Positions 45,657-54,506 of a stretch of 64,000 nt of DNA are shown here, piece by piece; positions within the stretch are counted from its first letter, which is position 1; each line of letters opens with the position of its first letter. A program made the position numbers and the translations under genes. This DNA comes from Thermosphaera aggregans DSM 11486. GTDB lineage: Archaea > Thermoproteota > Thermoprotei_A > Sulfolobales > Desulfurococcaceae. Location of the stretch: NCBI RefSeq assembly GCF_000092185.1, contig NC_014160.1, positions 186,001 through 250,000 on the forward strand, given 5' to 3'. The notes below the pieces were generated by a model. That model had not been told where the DNA came from, ran no database searches, and saw only the letters and a program-made list of their open reading frames with translations.

Positions 45657-47116
45657 CTAGCCGGGAGGCTGGGCTCGAAGGGCTCCCCGCGAACCCGTTA
45701 GTTTCGACTCGACTAATTGGCCAGCTACCAGTATCAGTGTCGAGACCAGTAGTACCCACGCCGAGAGCGGTAAGCCGGCCACTACTTCTCTAAAAGCCCT
45801 TCTAGGACCCAGCACAGTAGCGTAGTACGTGGCGAGCCCGACGCCCACTACTAGTGACGCGAGGGCGGATCTCCTCATCACCGTGCTAGTTCTGGGTTGC
45901 CTGTACACTCCGAGCACTGTAATGGGGGCTAGTGGTAGCAGTATTACCGAGGTCAAGACGGAGAGCTCAACTATAAATCCAGTGCCCAGCAGGGCTACTA
46001 GCGTAGCGGCTACTACTAGCGCGGCGTCGACGGCCCGGGCTACTGCCAGGCTCTTCTTCTCGCTCAGCGACACTAGACTACTAGACACTGCGAGGACTAT
46101 GCTATTAGCCGTGGAGACGGCGGCCGCAATTACACTAACAGCTATTAGAGACCCTAGAGGCGGGTGCATGAGTCCGAGTAAGTAGGGCGTGACGGAGTCC
46201 CAGCCTAGACCCCTGGGCAGGGCTCCAGTAGCGGCTAGACCAGCCGCTACGAGGCCGACTAGCACGACTACTAGAGTGTAGAGGAACCCGTAGATGTAGA
46301 ACGCGACTACGCCCTTCTTGTACGCCTCCTCGTCGCGGGGGACGTAGAGCCTAATAACTACCTGCGGGTTTGTAATGGCGAAGAAAGCCCAGGGTAGCGT
46401 GTAGGCTATAAACGTGGAGAGAGACCAGAACCCTGTCAGCCCCAAGTGCCCTGTCTTCGAGAGCTCCGTGAACACGTCGCTGAGAGTAAGCCCCCTCGCT
46501 GGCACTAGGTAGAAGAGCGCCCAGATCAAGTAGGCTAGCCCCCCGCTCAGCATTAAGAGCCCCTGGTAGGTGTCTGTGAGAGCTACGCTCCACATGCCGG
46601 CGATAAATATCCATGAGTAGACTAGAGCGGCGGATATGAGAATAGCCTCCAGTGACCCCAGGCCCCCGTAACTAAACATCGCCTCGAGGCCCCTTATCTG
46701 AGCGGCGAGGTAGGGCACCATTGCGAACAAGTAGACGAGCGCGGTGGCCACTGCGAGAACTCTGCTGTTGTAGAGGTCTCCCAGCATTTGCGAGGGAGCG
46801 AGCCACTGATATCTCCTGGCCAGTCTCCAGATCTCGTAGCCAATAGTGGAGAGAATGACTACTGTCGCGGCCAAGTAGAGGAGTTCGAAGCCGAGAGCGC
46901 CAATACCAGTAGCGTAGGTCATTCCGACGAGCCCCCCATCATAAACGCGCTGTAAGTAGTTGCCGCGTAGGTTCCAGCTGAGAGCAGAACTCCGAGTCTA
47001 CTACTAGCAGTGTAGTAGTCGCGCAGACTCCTAGTAAAATACCTCCTCGAGAGCAGTGCTAGAGTAGTCCCTACAGCTATGTGCGCTACTAGGAGGACTA
47101 GGAGTTCTACTCTCAA
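45657..47116 (-). pseudogene. Second SSS symporter, split by a one-base deletion
   Basis: Closely parallels the symporter at 38679-40118: DYYTASSRLGVLLSAGTYAATTYSAFMM, then in the next frame LVGMTYATGIGALGFELLYL, AGMWSVALTDTYQGLLML, and AAAVSTANSIVLAVSS. The frame breaks at a run of six G (46932-46937 on the other strand). Restoring one T, giving ATGATGGTGGGGCT as in the native copy, repairs it exactly. Start is TTG 47116 after GGAGGAGGTGAG. Otherwise the gene is complete, so the lesion is recent or a sequencing error. Confidence 0.82.
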
Positions 47117-47121
47117 CTAGC

Positions 47122-47292
47122 TCACCTCCTCCTCCACAGCTCAATTATCGAGACGACACCAGCTAGGAGCGCCAGAGCGGTCCACGCAGTAAAGAGCTCT
47201 AGTCCACGCGCTCCGGGCAGGGCGGAGTAGGGTACTACGTAGAAGCAGAGTAGTAGAGCTACTTGGAGCAGTCTGAGTGCTAGCCTGTTCAT
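47122..47292 (-). CDS. Second YhdT-like symporter partner, 56 residues
   Basis: An unlisted short gene from ATG 47292 to TGA 47122. Its protein has two helices and lines up with the native partner: LLLCFYVVPYSAL with LILLMYVIPYAIL, and a C-terminal ELWRRR with YKWVRE. It ends 5 bases before the symporter start, as one operon. A palindromic operator candidate lies right before its start codon. It confirms that the whole two-gene transport unit was transferred. Confidence 0.75.
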   Translation of the reverse strand: MNRLALRLLQVALLLCFYVVPYSALPGARGLELFTAWTALALLAGVVSIIELWRRR

Positions 47293-47302
47293 GGGTGAAC
47301 AC

Positions 47303-47316
47303 CGAACACTTGTTCG
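47303..47316. promoter_or_regulatory. Palindromic operator candidate, symporter/regulator promoter
   Basis: CGAACA-CT-TGTTCG is a perfect inverted repeat 10 bases upstream of the small symporter partner and between divergent promoters. A TATA-like TTTAAAATA (about 47345-47353) serves the regulator gene on the other side. The neighbouring gene encodes an HTH regulator with a ligand domain, the obvious candidate to bind here. Confidence 0.5.
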
Positions 47317-47370
47317 CCTCTGAGAGGAGTTTATTAAGAGCCTAGTTTAAAATACATCTGTGTGCGCTCT

Positions 47371-48381
47371 ATGAGCTCTGTTAAGAGGCGCCTACTAGAG
47401 TTCTTAAAGAGCTATCAGGGCTCTTACATTCCGCAGTCGCACATTCACAGGGCGCTGGGGGTCTCTAAGAGCAGGGTCTCAGAGATCCTCCGCGAGCTGG
47501 AGTTAGAGGGGCTTATAGCGAGGACTAGTATTGGGAGGAGTAAAGTAGTCTACGTCAAGCCCGGGCTCTCTGAGAGGCACGCGGAGCCGGACCACAAGTC
47601 GCTCAGAGTGGGGATTGTCTACTCCAGCGAGTACTTGTTTCTCGGCGGCTTTGTTAAAAGACTCGCGAAGCGGGGCTTCAGGGTCGAGATGCTCGTCTAC
47701 AGAGACGGCTTAAAAGCCACTAGAGCACTGGCCGAGGGCGAAGTACACGCCGCGCTCTCACCTCTAGTCGGGCAACTCTACTTATACCCCACTTACAGGA
47801 CCTACAGAGTAGTCCTCGGGGGTCTCAGTGGGGGGTTCAGGGTGCTCTACAGAGAGGGCTCTAGCAGAGTCTACTCTACTGTGATTAGCACAATGGACTA
47901 CGCGAGGTGGCGCGCTCTGAGTAGAGGGCTCACTGAGGCCTCTCACACAGTCTACTACTCAGACCCCTCTACTCTGGCACTCCTCGCTAGTAGTGGCGGC
48001 TACGTGGTCACGTGGCACCCCGTATACCTGGAGCTCGAGAAGCACGGCTTCAGAGCCCTCTACACGCCCGGCGACTTGGAGGTGGAGTTCTGCTGCGTTC
48101 TCGGAGTCTCGAACACGCTAAGCCGGAGGGAGCTAGGAGTTGTGGTGAAGGCGTACTACGAGTCTCTCGAGGAGTACTCGCGGAGCCCAGACAAGTACTT
48201 AGACTACTACTCGGCTACTACGGGAATAGACGTCTCAGTGCTGAGGAGCGCTGTGAGGGAGTACAGAGTGCAGAGAGAGCTGGGGGTCAGAGTAGTGGAC
48301 AGAGTGCTCCAGGGCTACGCGCCGAGCGTGCCCAGTAGAGAGGTGTACTACGAGGCGACCATGCAGGGAGAACAGGGCTGA
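47371..48381 (+). CDS. One-component regulator: winged HTH fused to solute-binding fold
   Basis: About 336 residues. Residues 5-65 form a winged HTH (IPQSHIHRALGVSKSRVSEILRELELEG). From about 78 on, RVGIVYSSEYLFLGGFVKRLAKRG, GEVHAALSPLVGQ, YSDPSTLALLASSGGYVVTWHPVYLE and a helical tail with EEYSRSPDKYLDYYSATTGID follow the NMT1/nitrate-taurine binding-protein fold, with no signal peptide. So a ligand-binding domain is used inside the cell as sensor. It faces the symporter operon and probably senses the transported solute. ATG 47371 or GTG 47362 is the start. Confidence 0.78.
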   Translation: MSSVKRRLLEFLKSYQGSYIPQSHIHRALGVSKSRVSEILRELELEGLIARTSIGRSKVVYVKPGLSERHAEPDHKSLRVGIVYSSEYLFLGGFVKRLAKRGFRVEMLVYRDGLKATRALAEGEVHAALSPLVGQLYLYPTYRTYRVVLGGLSGGFRVLYREGSSRVYSTVISTMDYARWRALSRGLTEASHTVYYSDPSTLALLASSGGYVVTWHPVYLELEKHGFRALYTPGDLEVEFCCVLGVSNTLSRRELGVVVKAYYESLEEYSRSPDKYLDYYSATTGIDVSVLRSAVREYRVQRELGVRVVDRVLQGYAPSVPSREVYYEATMQGEQG

Positions 48382-48663: not shown

Positions 48664-49131
48664 TTATTCAGAGAAGTCTTCTAGTTGTTTTGCTCTAGTA
48701 TAGCCCTTGTAGCCAATTACAGTAAAGAGTATTATTGCGAGCACGGTCATAGCGAGAGCGAGCTCTACAGGGGCACTAGACAGCTCAAACAAGAAATACG
48801 CCACCAGCCAGATCAGGGCTGTCGCGACCGCCGAGTAGAGAAGCATGCCGACTAGGAGAGCGAGCACGCGTTTTGGGAGGTAAGGTGCACGCTCTAATAG
48901 CAATACTGTGGCTAGAATTAGGAGGAACACACCGATAAATAAGTTCGCTCTGTTACCAGTGAGAGTCCACGTAAAAATATTTATGATAGAGGCAATCAGC
49001 CCGCAGGCGAAAAATGCAATGAAGTACTTAACTCCTAAAGAGCCTTTACGCAGAGTCTGCAAAACGTGCTCACCTGTAAGGGTTTTTGGGTAATCTCGCT
49101 CACCATAACCCGATGCACCTGCCAGCTTCAT
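48664..49131 (-). CDS. Four-helix membrane protein next to the halocin C8-like gene
   Basis: A protein of up to 155 residues with hydrophobic helices at about 34-53, 62-82, 88-115 and 122-143. Its start overlaps the end of the cysteine-rich protein gene by 32 bases on the same strand, so the two are co-transcribed and possibly co-translated. By position it could be an immunity or export factor for that protein, which is inference. No family is recognised. The true start may lie some codons downstream of ATG 49131. Confidence 0.6.
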   Translation of the reverse strand: MKLAGASGYGERDYPKTLTGEHVLQTLRKGSLGVKYFIAFFACGLIASIINIFTWTLTGNRANLFIGVFLLILATVLLLERAPYLPKRVLALLVGMLLYSAVATALIWLVAYFLFELSSAPVELALAMTVLAIILFTVIGYKGYTRAKQLEDFSE

Positions 49132-50245
49132 AGCAGGTCACTGGAAGGAAAATTAACACCGCACATGCAAGACAGCCAGCGAGACCCATTGCAATACACC
49201 CGAGACACCACCATATCGTAAATATGTGGAAACAAGGTGGTAGACAAGTTACTACTTGAACGCAGAGAGGGCACGCCGCCATCACCGATGAAATGGATGC
49301 AAGCGTGGCCAGGCAACTCACTATTGTTGACAAGCAATTAAGAAAACTGTAAATAGTATTTCCGCTATCTGTTATAACGTCGAAGCTTGTGAGGATGGTC
49401 TTGTCATATTCTGCCAACTTGCTCTCCACTATTTCTGTTAGCTCCGCTAGTGCTTTCTCTACGACTCGATATCCCTCAAAGAGGGTGAACTCGCCACTCT
49501 CCTGGTACACGTTAGAGAGCTCCTGCACTACCACGCCTAGAACGCTGTAAAGCCGAGATAGCGTGACGGAGGAGTTGACCCCTACAAGCTCTAGTGACAG
49601 TCGACCGCCCTCTTCACTCGGCACGTAGTCGATTAGCGTAATGGAGTAGTTGTAAGCCTCCTCACTTAGCGGTACGAGCAGAGTGCTTATGGACAAGTTG
49701 AAGTCTGCGTGTTTAATAGTGTATCCAAGTACGTAGTACTCCACTACTTCGCCTCCCACAGCCTTTACATGAATGAACACACCCCTTTTCTCGACTCCTT
49801 TCAACACCTCCGTGTAATTCCATATTGTTGCGACGTTCACTACTTGCAACTCCGCGTGCGTGTTGTTCTGAATAGCCATGAACTCTGAACCATGTGCCTG
49901 GATAGGACAGTAACTGCAGGTATAATTGACACAACCGCCCGTTGCATTGTAAAGCTCTGGAAGCTCCGGCGGTGCGAGCGAGTCTATTTTAATCACGTAC
50001 TCGTATCCGCTGATCGTGACTGTTACATTGTGATATGTTGTCTCATATGACGAGGGGCTTATAGTAATCTGCTTTGCGAGCGTAGGTGTTTTAGGGGATT
50101 CTTGTGTAAGAGGTTTGAAGAAGCCTGGTCGGAGGACTACGTCTGCGGGTATTAGCCTAAATACCACCATGAGTACTAGTACTATGGCTATTACGGACGC
50201 GGGAATTACGTACCTAGACGCGGACTTAGATATGGGTACCCCAAT
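49100..50245 (-). CDS. Membrane-anchored precursor with halocin C8-like cysteine-rich C-terminus
   Basis: About 381 residues if started at ATT 50245, which follows GAGGTGAT directly; the first standard codon, ATG 50170, would cut the N-terminal helix (RYVIPASVIAIVLVLMVVF) in half. Residues 50-290 are a beta-rich extracellular domain with a CxxxxCxxC group and many NxS/T sites. The last 80 residues hold twelve cysteines in hydrophobic sequence (CPLCVQVVTCLPPC..., ending TCYEAGRCIGLW), a layout much like halocin C8 (CxxC-x7-C-x3-C..., ending in ACNRAGLC). I infer a bacteriocin-like precursor with a leader/immunity-type N-terminal domain. Confidence 0.55.
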   Translation of the reverse strand: MGVPISKSASRYVIPASVIAIVLVLMVVFRLIPADVVLRPGFFKPLTQESPKTPTLAKQITISPSSYETTYHNVTVTISGYEYVIKIDSLAPPELPELYNATGGCVNYTCSYCPIQAHGSEFMAIQNNTHAELQVVNVATIWNYTEVLKGVEKRGVFIHVKAVGGEVVEYYVLGYTIKHADFNLSISTLLVPLSEEAYNYSITLIDYVPSEEGGRLSLELVGVNSSVTLSRLYSVLGVVVQELSNVYQESGEFTLFEGYRVVEKALAELTEIVESKLAEYDKTILTSFDVITDSGNTIYSFLNCLSTIVSCLATLASISSVMAACPLCVQVVTCLPPCFHIFTIWWCLGCIAMGLAGCLACAVLIFLPVTCYEAGRCIGLW

Positions 50246-50279
50246 ATCACCTCTGTTAAAAGTTCATAATAAATATTTT

Positions 50280-50509
50280 TGAACATGAGTAAGTAAAGAG
50301 GCCTTGTCTAGCACTATCGACAAGTGTACTAATATCGCAGTAAGCTTCTCTTCGAGTGACTAACTATAGACTAGACAGGCACACAACATCAGCTTACCTC
50401 GTAGCCCTAAAAGGGCTCAAACAACCCCCAACTAGCCTTATTTACGGAAACGCCCCCCAACTTTTAAGCCCCAGTACTCATTTAGAGAGTGACTTGCGGG
50501 CTGAACTAC
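50280..50509. other. Intergenic region upstream of nurA
   Basis: 230 bases between divergent genes. It holds an inverted repeat CTTGTC-N10-GACAAG near 50305-50326, and a TATA-like CTTTTAAG at about 50461-50468 suited to nurA. The 76-codon open frame here has no coding character. Confidence 0.4.
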
Positions 50510-51564
50510 ATGCCTGTTCACGACAAGTTACTCCAGGCTCTCGCCTCTCTCGCAGCATAGATCTCCAGCGTCTACAGGCGTATTAGTGAACTAGAGTGCC
50601 AGGTCAGGGACATTAACACTTACCAGTTGAAGCCGGCGCCCAGAGGCGCTGTGGGAATAGTTGCTAGTGACTCGAGTAGAGTGTACAGAGAGATGAGAGC
50701 GGCTCTCCTCTTCGCCGTCCAGGCAGTGGCTGTCAGGTTCAAGTCCGGGGCCGAGGCCGTGCTCACAGACGCTGAGGCCGGCTACTGCGTCGTGCCAGCT
50801 GAGAGCGGTAAGACGCCTGTAGAGGAGGTTGTGAGGAGAGTGGCTCAGTTCGCTTCTAGAGAACTAGAACTCACAGTTGCGAGTAGGCTCGTGAGTGGAG
50901 GTGAGGTAGTCCCCCACGACGGCTCGCTCTTCTCGTTTCTCTGGTACGGTAAGTTCCCCGCAGTACCGGAGGAGTTCAAGTTCGCTAGGAGGCAGAGGCC
51001 CAGGACTCTGAGAGACCTCTGGCGGTCAGTAGCGAGCAGCCTACTCGAGGCTAGGCGCAGAGCACTATTACTATTCGTGGCCAAGACTATTAGGAGAAAC
51101 TACTACGTCGAGAAGCTAGTGCCGAGAGAGCTCGCGCCTACTAGCGCCCTGAACGACCTAGTCCTACTAGAGCTGCTGAGGAGACGGGGCTCTCTACCGC
51201 GAGAACCGCACTTCATCGAGCCGCTCTACATCGAGAAGCCCAGCGACCTGCCGAGGCCCCTGAAGAGCCTAGACCCCGAGGACATGGAGTACGTTAAGCC
51301 ACTACTCCCCATCACAGTCACCTACGTGGTGTTTAGCCGGGACGCCCCCCCCACCAGCTGACTCTCTCCGGTAAGCTGAGCCCCGAGGAGCTGAGCGACA
51401 TCCTCGAAGCGCTACTCCCCTACTCGACTACCGGCTACCCGGACCCCCTCAGAGTAGCGCACAACTTGTGCAGAGTCTCAGTGCAGGAGTTTAGAGTCGT
51501 GGCGGCTAAATTTGGTTCAACGCGAATACCCACTGGGAGAGAGCTTCTGGGTGAATTCACGTGA
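50510..51564 (+). pseudogene. nurA: Decayed nurA nuclease gene
   Basis: NurA is the 5'-3' nuclease that works with HerA in DNA-end resection. From ATG 50510 the frame meets TAG at 50558-50560 after 16 codons, then continues open with GIVASDSSRVYRE (the catalytic-aspartate motif I). It shifts frame at an eight-C run (51345-51352), after which GYPDPLRVAHNLC, typical of the NurA C-terminus, is read to TGA 51562. Both lesions would stop the full protein. It is the first gene of a nurA-herA-mre11 operon and overlaps herA as GTGA. Confidence 0.8.
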
Positions 51565-53151
51565 CCACTAGACCTATAGGCTTCGTGGGGGAGACCTCGA
51601 CTCCCGTGGAGATCACTGTTAAGGCCACGCACCCAGTCCCCGCTGGCACTTACGTGTACTTGAAGTTCAGAGTGAGAGACCCCATTACCGGAGAGGAGCT
51701 GGACAGAGAGGTCGTGGGCGTTATTGGCTCTGTGAGCTTTAAGTCCTACGTCCCGGTCATAGCGAGCACTGTGAGCGAGATCCCCGAGAGCTACGTGAGC
51801 GAGTTAGAGCGCGAGAGCTACATGAACGCCGTTATAGTCGCTGACATTACCGGCGGGAGGGCTGAGCCCCCCGCTACCCGCCGCCACCGGAGACACCGGT
51901 GTACCCGGCTTGAGCAGAGCACTTGAGAGTAGTGTACTCTACTAGTAGGCCTGAGCGCGGTGTTAAAATAGGCTCTCTCCTCGGCTTTGGAGAGCTCGAC
52001 GTGGTAGTAGACGTGAATGCGCTCGCGAAGCACCTCCTCGTAGTGGGGACAACGGGGTCTGGTAAGAGCAACTTCGTGGCTATTCTAGCAGACAGGGTGG
52101 CTCAGCTAGGGGGCTCAGTAGTAGTATTCGACGTGCACAGAGAGTACAGGGGCTTGAAGAGCGAGTCGGGGAGAGTTCACGTAGTAGACTACGAGGCCGC
52201 GATAAACCTCGTCAAGACGCCTATTGAAATGCTCGTGAAGTTCATCATCCCCGAGAGCGCGGCGACCAAGCAGAGAAGACTGCTGAGAAGCGCTCTGCGG
52301 AGACTAAACGAGGAGGTAGTGAAGGTGGCTACTGAGAACAGGTTCCCCTACTCAGAGGCCGTTAAGAGAATATACGCTGAGGAGAGGAAGCGGAAGGGCC
52401 TGGGGCAGGCTGAGACCCCGGAGGAGATGTACAGCGAGCTCTTAAAGAAGTACGTGGAGGAGGCCGGCAGGAGTAGTGGTGAGAGGAGCGTTGCCGACGT
52501 CCTAGACAAAGTAGACGATTTCTTCGAGTGGCACTTAGTGGGCCTGGACACGCCTAATGTGAGCGAGGTTGTGGGCTGCGGCAGAATAGTAGTAGACGTC
52601 TCGGTGCTCGTAGACTCCGAGAAGGACTACATGCTGAAAGTCGTGGCCGAGGATTTCCTCTAGTCGCTCAAACAGCGGAGAATACCCCCCACAATGCTAG
52701 TCGTGGAGGAGGCCCACCTCTTCATAGGCTCCAAGACCCAGACGTGGAGTAAAGAGTCTCTCCAGAGGTTTATCAGAGAGGGGAGGAAGTTTGGGGGAAT
52801 GCTAGTAGTCGTGAGCCAGAGGCCAAGGGCGCTAGACCCCGCGTGGTGTCTCAAGTACAGAACTTCGTCTTGCTCAAGCTCGTGCAGAAGAGTGACCGTG
52901 TGTTTATTACAGAGGTCTCCGACATTCTCAGCGAGGAGTACGTGAACGTGTTGCCGGCTCTGAGCCCCGGGCAGACCGTTGTGCTGGGAGAGTGGATTGG
53001 CAAATACCCCGCTCTCGTTAAAATAGACCTTCACAGGGGTAAGAGAGTGAGCGCGACCCTGGATATCGTGAGCTCCTGGAGGAGAGCACTCGAAGAGGTC
53101 TCTCTGAGGGCTAGTGAGGGGTCTCCTAGTAGCGAGTGGGAGGCTGTGTAG
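51561..53151 (+). pseudogene. herA: Decayed herA helicase gene
   Basis: HerA is a hexameric DNA translocase. The N-terminal HAS barrel (GFVGETSTPVEITVKA) starts at GTG 51561. The frame shifts near a C run at 51867-51872; the next frame has Walker A VGTTGSGKSN (about 52045). TAG at 52661-52663 breaks it again, Walker B MLVVEEAHLF follows, and a third lesion, loss of one base near 52838-52844, precedes VSQVQNFVLLKL. The C-terminus is otherwise complete. Three lesions in one gene indicate a pseudogene. Confidence 0.85.
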
Positions 53152-53153
53152 CC

Positions 53154-54506
53154 GTGCTACTCCTCCACGTCTCAGACACACACCTCGGCGCCACTAGGCC
53201 CGGTAACCTGAGAGAGAGGGAAATGGGCTTCTACGAGGCCTTCAACGAGGTAGTAGACATAGCTAAGATCTCCTCATCCAAGCCTTGTCAGGTAAAAATT
53301 CTTGCCACCATAGCATGGAAAAGCGGCGATTCGATTATTCTGCGAGATGTTTCAGGACTTAGGGAATTCAAGATAAAAGGCAGTGTAGGCCGGGAAATCC
53401 TACGTCTACCCTGCGAGACCTCAATATATGTTGAAGGATTAGTGGAGGGAGACTACCTCGAAGTTAATAAGTACGAGGTGATTTATCCATCCAAGCTTGA
53501 GTGTTGTGAAACAGACGCTGAAGACGTTCGCGAATATGCATTTAATTATCACATGTATGTGGGCAGACCAAGGTGTTTCAAAGTTATTAGAACAATATCT
53601 ATCTTGTCCTACTTGATAAGAAACGCGTTAATATTTGAGGGGTTCACGGAACTACAACCACCAATTCTCGGCTGGAAGAGTGATCCCGGTTTGAGAGGGG
53701 CTAGTAAGGTTAAAGTAAGCCTGTATGGGAGTGAATACGAGTTGCATTCAAGCCTAATAATGTATAAGCAGATATATGCGAGCATTTTCGAGAAAATATT
53801 CTACTTCGCAAGGAACATAAGGGTTGAGCCGGCCGAAAACTTCTACACAGGGAGGCACTTGGTCGAGTTCACACAAGTCGATGTGGAAGAAGCATTCACC
53901 AGTATGCAGGAATCAATCAGCCTTGCCGAGTCCATCTTGAAGAAAGTTGTGAAAGAGTTTCTGAACAATCACGCAGATCTCCTCGACTCTTCAAGAATTG
54001 AATGGTTAGATAGAACCTTTCTAACCGAGAAATACCCGGTTATCACATATGAGGAGGCAGTGGACTTGTTGACCCAGCACGGTTTTGAACTGAGAAGAGG
54101 CTGCGAGCTACCGCACAATGCTGAGGCATTTCTAGGAGAATATTATGGTACACCAGTATGGCTGACCGGTTTTCCCTCAACTGCTAGAGGATTCTACTAT
54201 ATTGAAAACGCTGAGAAACCGGGCTATAACGTGGACTGGAATCTCATAGTTCCAGAAGGGCATGGTGAAGTGCTTGATGGAGGATGCAGAGAGTATAGGG
54301 TCGAGGAACTGGAAAAAAGAATCAAGTCCACAGGCGAAAACCCTTCAGAATATCAATGGTTCCTTGACATTGTTTCAAAGGGATATGTAAAACCCACCTG
54401 TGGATGGGGTTTGGGGCTTGAAAGATTGGTTAAAACTTTTCACGGACTAGCTCATGTTGGGTTTGCAACACCCCATCCACGTCTACCAGGAGTAATCGGT
54501 CCTTAA
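53154..54506 (+). CDS. AsnRS-like protein with Mre11 N-terminus (chimera)
   Basis: About 450 residues. Codons 1-39 from GTG 53154 are the start of Mre11 (LLLHVSDTHLGATRPG, with phosphodiesterase motif I DTH). From about 53270 base use returns to host type and the protein becomes a class II synthetase: an OB-like domain (KILATIAW...), ELHSSLIMYKQ, NIRVEPAEN with the motif 2 arginine, FTQVDVE, and motif 3 GWGLGLERLVK. It is an AsnRS/asparagine synthetase-related paralogue. Its own start was apparently lost in the recombination and replaced in frame by that of mre11. Confidence 0.82.
   Translation: MLLLHVSDTHLGATRPGNLREREMGFYEAFNEVVDIAKISSSKPCQVKILATIAWKSGDSIILRDVSGLREFKIKGSVGREILRLPCETSIYVEGLVEGDYLEVNKYEVIYPSKLECCETDAEDVREYAFNYHMYVGRPRCFKVIRTISILSYLIRNALIFEGFTELQPPILGWKSDPGLRGASKVKVSLYGSEYELHSSLIMYKQIYASIFEKIFYFARNIRVEPAENFYTGRHLVEFTQVDVEEAFTSMQESISLAESILKKVVKEFLNNHADLLDSSRIEWLDRTFLTEKYPVITYEEAVDLLTQHGFELRRGCELPHNAEAFLGEYYGTPVWLTGFPSTARGFYYIENAEKPGYNVDWNLIVPEGHGEVLDGGCREYRVEELEKRIKSTGENPSEYQWFLDIVSKGYVKPTCGWGLGLERLVKTFHGLAHVGFATPHPRLPGVIGP

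Follow-up and report, generated by a model that had tools for sequence, protein, structure and literature searches.

Archaeal polymorphic toxin systems, reportedly described by Makarova et al. in 2019, are said to pair a common means of delivery with toxin ends that can be exchanged, and to have immunity genes close by. The same authors reportedly expanded the halocin C8 family. Very little is known about the toxins that hyperthermophilic archaea make. A 2023 paper counts no archaeocins as described besides halocins and sulfolobicins (PMC10105419); for Sulfolobales, a 2021 paper states that no genes other than the two for sulfolobicins have been characterised (PMC8628083). Sulfolobicins (SulA/SulB) are heat-stable, proteinaceous toxins of crenarchaea directed against relatives (PMC5733018). 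The halocin C8 precursor, ProC8, carries its own immunity domain, and its cleavage yields the immunity protein and a peptide of 76 residues (PMC11509114; PMC8628083, on Sun et al. 2005). B310/C108, a secreted toxin of the Sulfolobus virus SSV9, inhibits relatives, and a small transmembrane (TM) protein gene lies downstream of it (PMC8628083).

Here we analyse a locus within 64,000 nucleotides of the Thermosphaera aggregans DSM 11486 genome (NC_014160.1, positions 186,001 to 250,000; this whole stretch is called the window, and L and G numbers denote our loci and genomes). The locus probably encodes a modular archaeocin precursor, whose cysteine-rich tail would act as a disulfide-locked toxin and whose downstream membrane protein would likely provide immunity.

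Results

The precursor gene lies at 49100..50245 on the minus strand and is present in a single copy in its genome. Its stop codon is at 49100-49102, and the frame stays open beyond 50245. The initial annotation had placed the ORF at 49100-50245; the location was correct, while its start at 50245 is an ATT, one of several candidates. The upstream in-frame candidates are this ATT or ATA codons. The product has 381 amino acids from the ATT or 356 from the ATG at 50170. The latter is the first ATG and falls inside the hydrophobic segment, so a start there would leave little of the signal or anchor. At 50265..50280 (minus strand), about 27 bp 5' of the ATT, an A+T-rich, TATA-like stretch is a putative promoter element. 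The flanking genes (45657-48381 and 50627-53181) have a G+C content of 0.55-0.60, against 0.43-0.49 elsewhere in the inspected stretch; that of the precursor and downstream gene pair is 0.47-0.48. Frameshifts apparently split two genes, one symporter-like (46919) and the other ATPase-like and probably encoding HerA (51561-53151).

The product begins with a predicted signal peptide or membrane anchor at about residues 14-34 (50144..50206, minus strand), where a low-confidence structure model placed a helix at residues 16-31. As had been claimed, it has no Tat motif. The next domain, of about 250 residues, contains eight N-glycosylation sequons, compared with 1.7 expected, and this excess suggests that it resembles an extracellular protein. 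On this count and on family alignments, the conserved secreted carrier domain was assigned to 49370..50068 (minus strand), with two helices at its end. The remaining 89 residues (49103..49369, minus strand) form a hydrophobic (GRAVY 1.38) predicted toxin, or cargo, whose type recurs in L004, L050 and L002.

Twelve cysteines fall within the last 78 residues, with spacings of 6-13-2-5-3-8-2-7-2-9-5, and the protein ends in TCYEAGRCIGLW. At the cysteine frequency of the window's proteins (0.99%), the probability of at least 12 in 89 residues is ~1e-10; this count per 89 residues is reached nowhere else among the window's ORFs. The product thus has a hydrophobic C-terminal peptide with an even set of cysteines after a larger exported domain, the order of parts that had been proposed. 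The previously given ending and spacing also agreed with the ORF, and two further cysteines upstream of CPLC (C-x6-C-x13-) have to be added to that spacing. A structure prediction, proposed earlier as a check on the disulfides, was run on the single sequence; its mean pLDDT of 42 was too low for them to be seen.

The features of halocin C8 given in the initial annotation were accurate: the halocin C8 sequence used here was identical (100%) to a Natrinema altunense record and matched TIGR04449, the NCBIfam model of the cargo domain, at E 1e-16. The window protein, its tail and its own genome (G000) gave no match to this model (cut-off 24 bits), and L023 and L019 reached 14.7 and 14.9 bits, under the cut-off. 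PF22862, the Pfam model of the halocin C8 N-terminal domain, matched three halocin precursors at E 1e-44 or better; it matched none of 28 family members, including the window protein, and nothing in 25 genomes exceeded its cut-off. With halocin profiles built here, the tail scored no better than shuffled controls. In profile-profile comparison with halocin precursors, 44 of 100 column shuffles scored as well for the cargo, and 10 of 100 for the N-terminal domain. Strict membership of the window protein in the halocin C8 family was rejected because neither model matched and the profile scores stayed at the shuffle level. Of the earlier proposal, a halocin C8-like archaeocin precursor, the predicted functional class finds good support in evidence from the whole family, whereas membership in the strict sense does not.

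A true but highly diverged halocin C8 family member, homologous in both carrier and cargo, nevertheless deserves consideration; the mechanism could be the same, with the difference lying in ancestry. Whole-genome scans gave weak, full-model TIGR04449 matches on family cargos in G508 (E 0.003), G104 (0.09) and G169 (1.7), and three profile comparisons of the family with halocin precursors placed the same beta-strand stretch in register. A structure model of a halocin precursor gave a fairly confident five-strand N-terminal domain and did not show the peptide. An indirect link is L023, a fragment with the family carrier; its genome and that of L002 belong to one genus. The tail of L023 matched halocin C8-like domains of Sulfolobaceae, some of which pass the TIGR04449 cut-off, with 44.9 bits (E 1e-14), compared with at most 2.6 bits for shuffled and at most 23.7 bits for cysteine-fixed shuffled controls. 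L023 is cut by a contig end that leaves about 35 carrier residues visible, which is the weakest point of this link. A family carrier with a Sulfolobaceae-type tail suggests that the family can hold halocin C8-like cargo. Given the missing model matches and the shuffle results for the window protein itself, homology throughout its length appears unlikely.

Sulfolobaceae genomes do contain proteins above the TIGR04449 cut-off. Among the TIGR04449-type proteins L073-L076 and L113-L115, three exceed it, and a small TM protein is encoded after these proteins. The membrane part of this small protein varies in L074-L076 and L113-L115, and its C-terminal part is conserved. One such locus (G090) lies about 5 kb from a window-family member.

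No named family in NCBIfam, Pfam or PHROGs covers the window protein. Relatives were first found by a whole-genome protein search of the order. Profile matches, some of them weak, came from 17 of the order's 214 genomes (E 0.1 or better) and, in a sample of 398 genomes from the phylum, from 27 (E 0.01 or better). A survey of relatives had been suggested earlier, and the shared carrier architecture does recur across the phylum, with hypervariable tails. By protein and profile searches, the gene is missing from two other genomes of its genus, which indicates that it is accessory; the neighbours at 50627-51361 and 48664-49131 have no match in those genomes either. No relative was found in viral contigs or phage records, nor was there a PHROG match, and a viral origin was rejected. 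Solved structural relatives were likewise rejected, PDB matches being at chance level only. L118, which came from the cargo search, was dismissed because it is not a carrier.

The common plan of the members runs from a hydrophobic segment at the N-terminus through a sequon-rich carrier and two helices to a variable tail. The carrier consensus centres on YNVTIxT...PxADxVxxxNxTTLSxxYxxL, and the two helices end in ELxxLAxxVEKxLxxYNK...D. In L061, L072 and L103, an extra domain follows the cysteine-rich part, which is not terminal there. The G002 genome contains at least three family loci, one broken by many stops. A remnant (L006/L027, G042:C1:185257-185358) retains a window-type tail (WWCVGCIAAGIVGCLIC) without most of the carrier.

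A rhodanese domain lies between signal peptide and carrier in seven members (L052, L053, L054, L057, L059, L061 and L071), all of which come from other classes within the phylum, and sulfur chemistry is possible in these fusions. Together with the CxxC-like motifs frequent in carriers and a thioredoxin/CcdA-like ORF on the opposite strand of the L062 stretch, they are what would be expected of a cell-surface redox or sulfur/metal-handling protein. In a sulfur-using hyperthermophile, the tail and the carrier motifs would then bind metal or exchange thiols or persulfides. Such a role seems improbable, since the tails have no fixed ligand pattern, are hypervariable, swapped, very hydrophobic and sporadic in occurrence, and one of them (L023) is halocin C8-like.

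All but one of 23 compared tails have 8 to 20 cysteines. The number was even in 21 of the 23 (binomial P = 3e-5, or 7e-4 with one tail per cluster), as expected if all cysteines pair, and this parity supports predicted disulfide locking of the cargo. Within cargo types, most cysteines are kept while other residues vary, as in the window type (L004, L050). L024, L064 and L065 have cysteine-poor tails, yet neither the carrier nor the TM protein downstream is lost, and disulfides may be dispensable for the toxin mechanism.

Tails and carriers did not follow each other. The carriers of L053 and L054 are 73% identical over 190 amino acids and those of L050 and L063 are 70% identical, with unrelated tails in both pairs. 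Conversely, the tails of L019 and L052 are 59% identical over 81 amino acids on carriers only 24% identical. In L004 and L050, tails of the window type sit on carriers that differ greatly from that of the window protein (carrier identity 23-26%, tail identity 37-41%). Comparison of these sequences indicates that carrier and cargo are decoupled and that modules have been shuffled. The family thus has the conserved delivery part with exchangeable ends by which modular toxins are recognised, the ends being predicted toxins.

On the minus strand at 48664..49131, overlapping the end of the precursor gene by 32 nt, lies a gene for a 155-amino-acid, four-TM protein, a candidate immunity protein that matched no family over cut-off. 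At 24 of 25 loci, the next ORF on the same strand, within 130 bp and often overlapping the precursor, encodes a small TM protein, mostly with two to six predicted TM segments (one short protein scored one). The exception is L071, where the gene at 178 bp encodes a helix-turn-helix/TM protein. When a single rule was applied throughout, such a gene followed 15 of 17 precursors, compared with 1 of 109 other genes of the same loci (Fisher P = 2e-16). Small TM-protein genes also lie 3' of halocin C8-like genes at several haloarchaeal and Sulfolobaceae loci, and by analogy immunity is the natural and likely reading of the downstream membrane protein. An export or anchoring role is possible. Cargo-specific co-variation of the downstream protein was not observed, with a partial rank correlation of 0.04; in the rhodanese group, downstream proteins track carriers.

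This tracking would also suit a surface protein anchored in the membrane by its C-terminus, with the tail as a helical hairpin in which cysteines either stabilise or are incidental, and with an assembly partner encoded downstream. The tails are indeed hydrophobic enough to score as TM segments. However, such an anchor would account neither for the even parity nor for the conservation of most cysteines within cargo types amid varying residues, and it would need neither swapping nor a match to a secreted halocin domain. We therefore regard it as quite improbable.

Discussion

The shared carrier, the hypervariable even-cysteine tails, the module swapping and the small membrane protein downstream lend good support to the predicted functional class, an archaeocin precursor that is exported and ends in a cysteine-rich peptide. 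At the level of sequence, predicted export, modularity, cysteine richness and the two-gene layout are established. We counted cysteine density, parity, decoupling, the L023 link, the downstream gene and patchy occurrence in favour of an archaeocin, and the lack of cargo co-variation, the cysteine-poor members, the rhodanese fusions and the poor structure model against it.

If the product is an archaeocin precursor, the cargo would fold extracellularly, as a hydrophobic bundle of helices that about six disulfides lock in place. An extracellular protease would cut it from the carrier, as in halocin C8, and the released cargo would damage the membranes of competing archaea, by analogy with halocin C8 and the SSV9 toxin. 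The four-TM protein would, again by analogy, protect the producer, and the carrier itself might contribute, as HalI does for halocin C8.

Our judgement is evenly balanced as to whether Thermoproteota have a phylum-wide set of interchangeable archaeocins, in which a single family of secreted carriers, fused to rhodanese in some lineages, exports a range of disulfide-rich peptides that are unrelated to one another and include the halocin C8 class, and in which every peptide has a small membrane protein of its own as protector. If so, archaea would have a larger pool of toxins, with halocin C8 as one class of cargo. Such a carrier family, with its exchangeable peptides, would offer numerous heat-stable candidates, would help to find relatives among proteins at present annotated as hypothetical, and would provide a toxin-immunity pair that can be tested.

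Like the window protein, halocin C8 (HalC8/ProC8; TIGR04449, PF22862) is made as a precursor for export, in which a hydrophobic C-terminal peptide follows an N-terminal domain, and both have an even number of cysteines (10 in the halocin C8 peptide, 12 in the tail). In contrast, neither carrier nor cargo shows detectable homology, the cysteine spacing differs, and the window protein lacks the Tat motif of halocin C8. The Sulfolobaceae TIGR04449 proteins resemble the window family in being crenarchaeal and in having a cysteine-rich C-terminal domain and a downstream TM protein, which has two TM segments there. Their cargo type is shared with L023, that of the window protein being another, and their N-terminal half is different and has no evident signal peptide.

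At the SSV9 B310/C108 locus, as here, a gene for a secreted protein, a predicted toxin in our case, precedes a small TM-protein gene. That toxin is not cysteine-rich and has no sequence similarity to the window protein, and kinship was rejected because none was found. Sulfolobicins, like the predicted toxin, are crenarchaeal and proteinaceous. Kinship with SulA/SulB was examined by proxy and none was detected: in G042, probably a genome of S. acidocaldarius DSM 639, the profile of the window family found just the L006/L027 remnant. The window family may already be among the predictions of Makarova et al. As in the archaeal polymorphic toxin systems, it combines a common delivery part with exchangeable ends, and where those systems have an immunity gene, this locus has a candidate for one.
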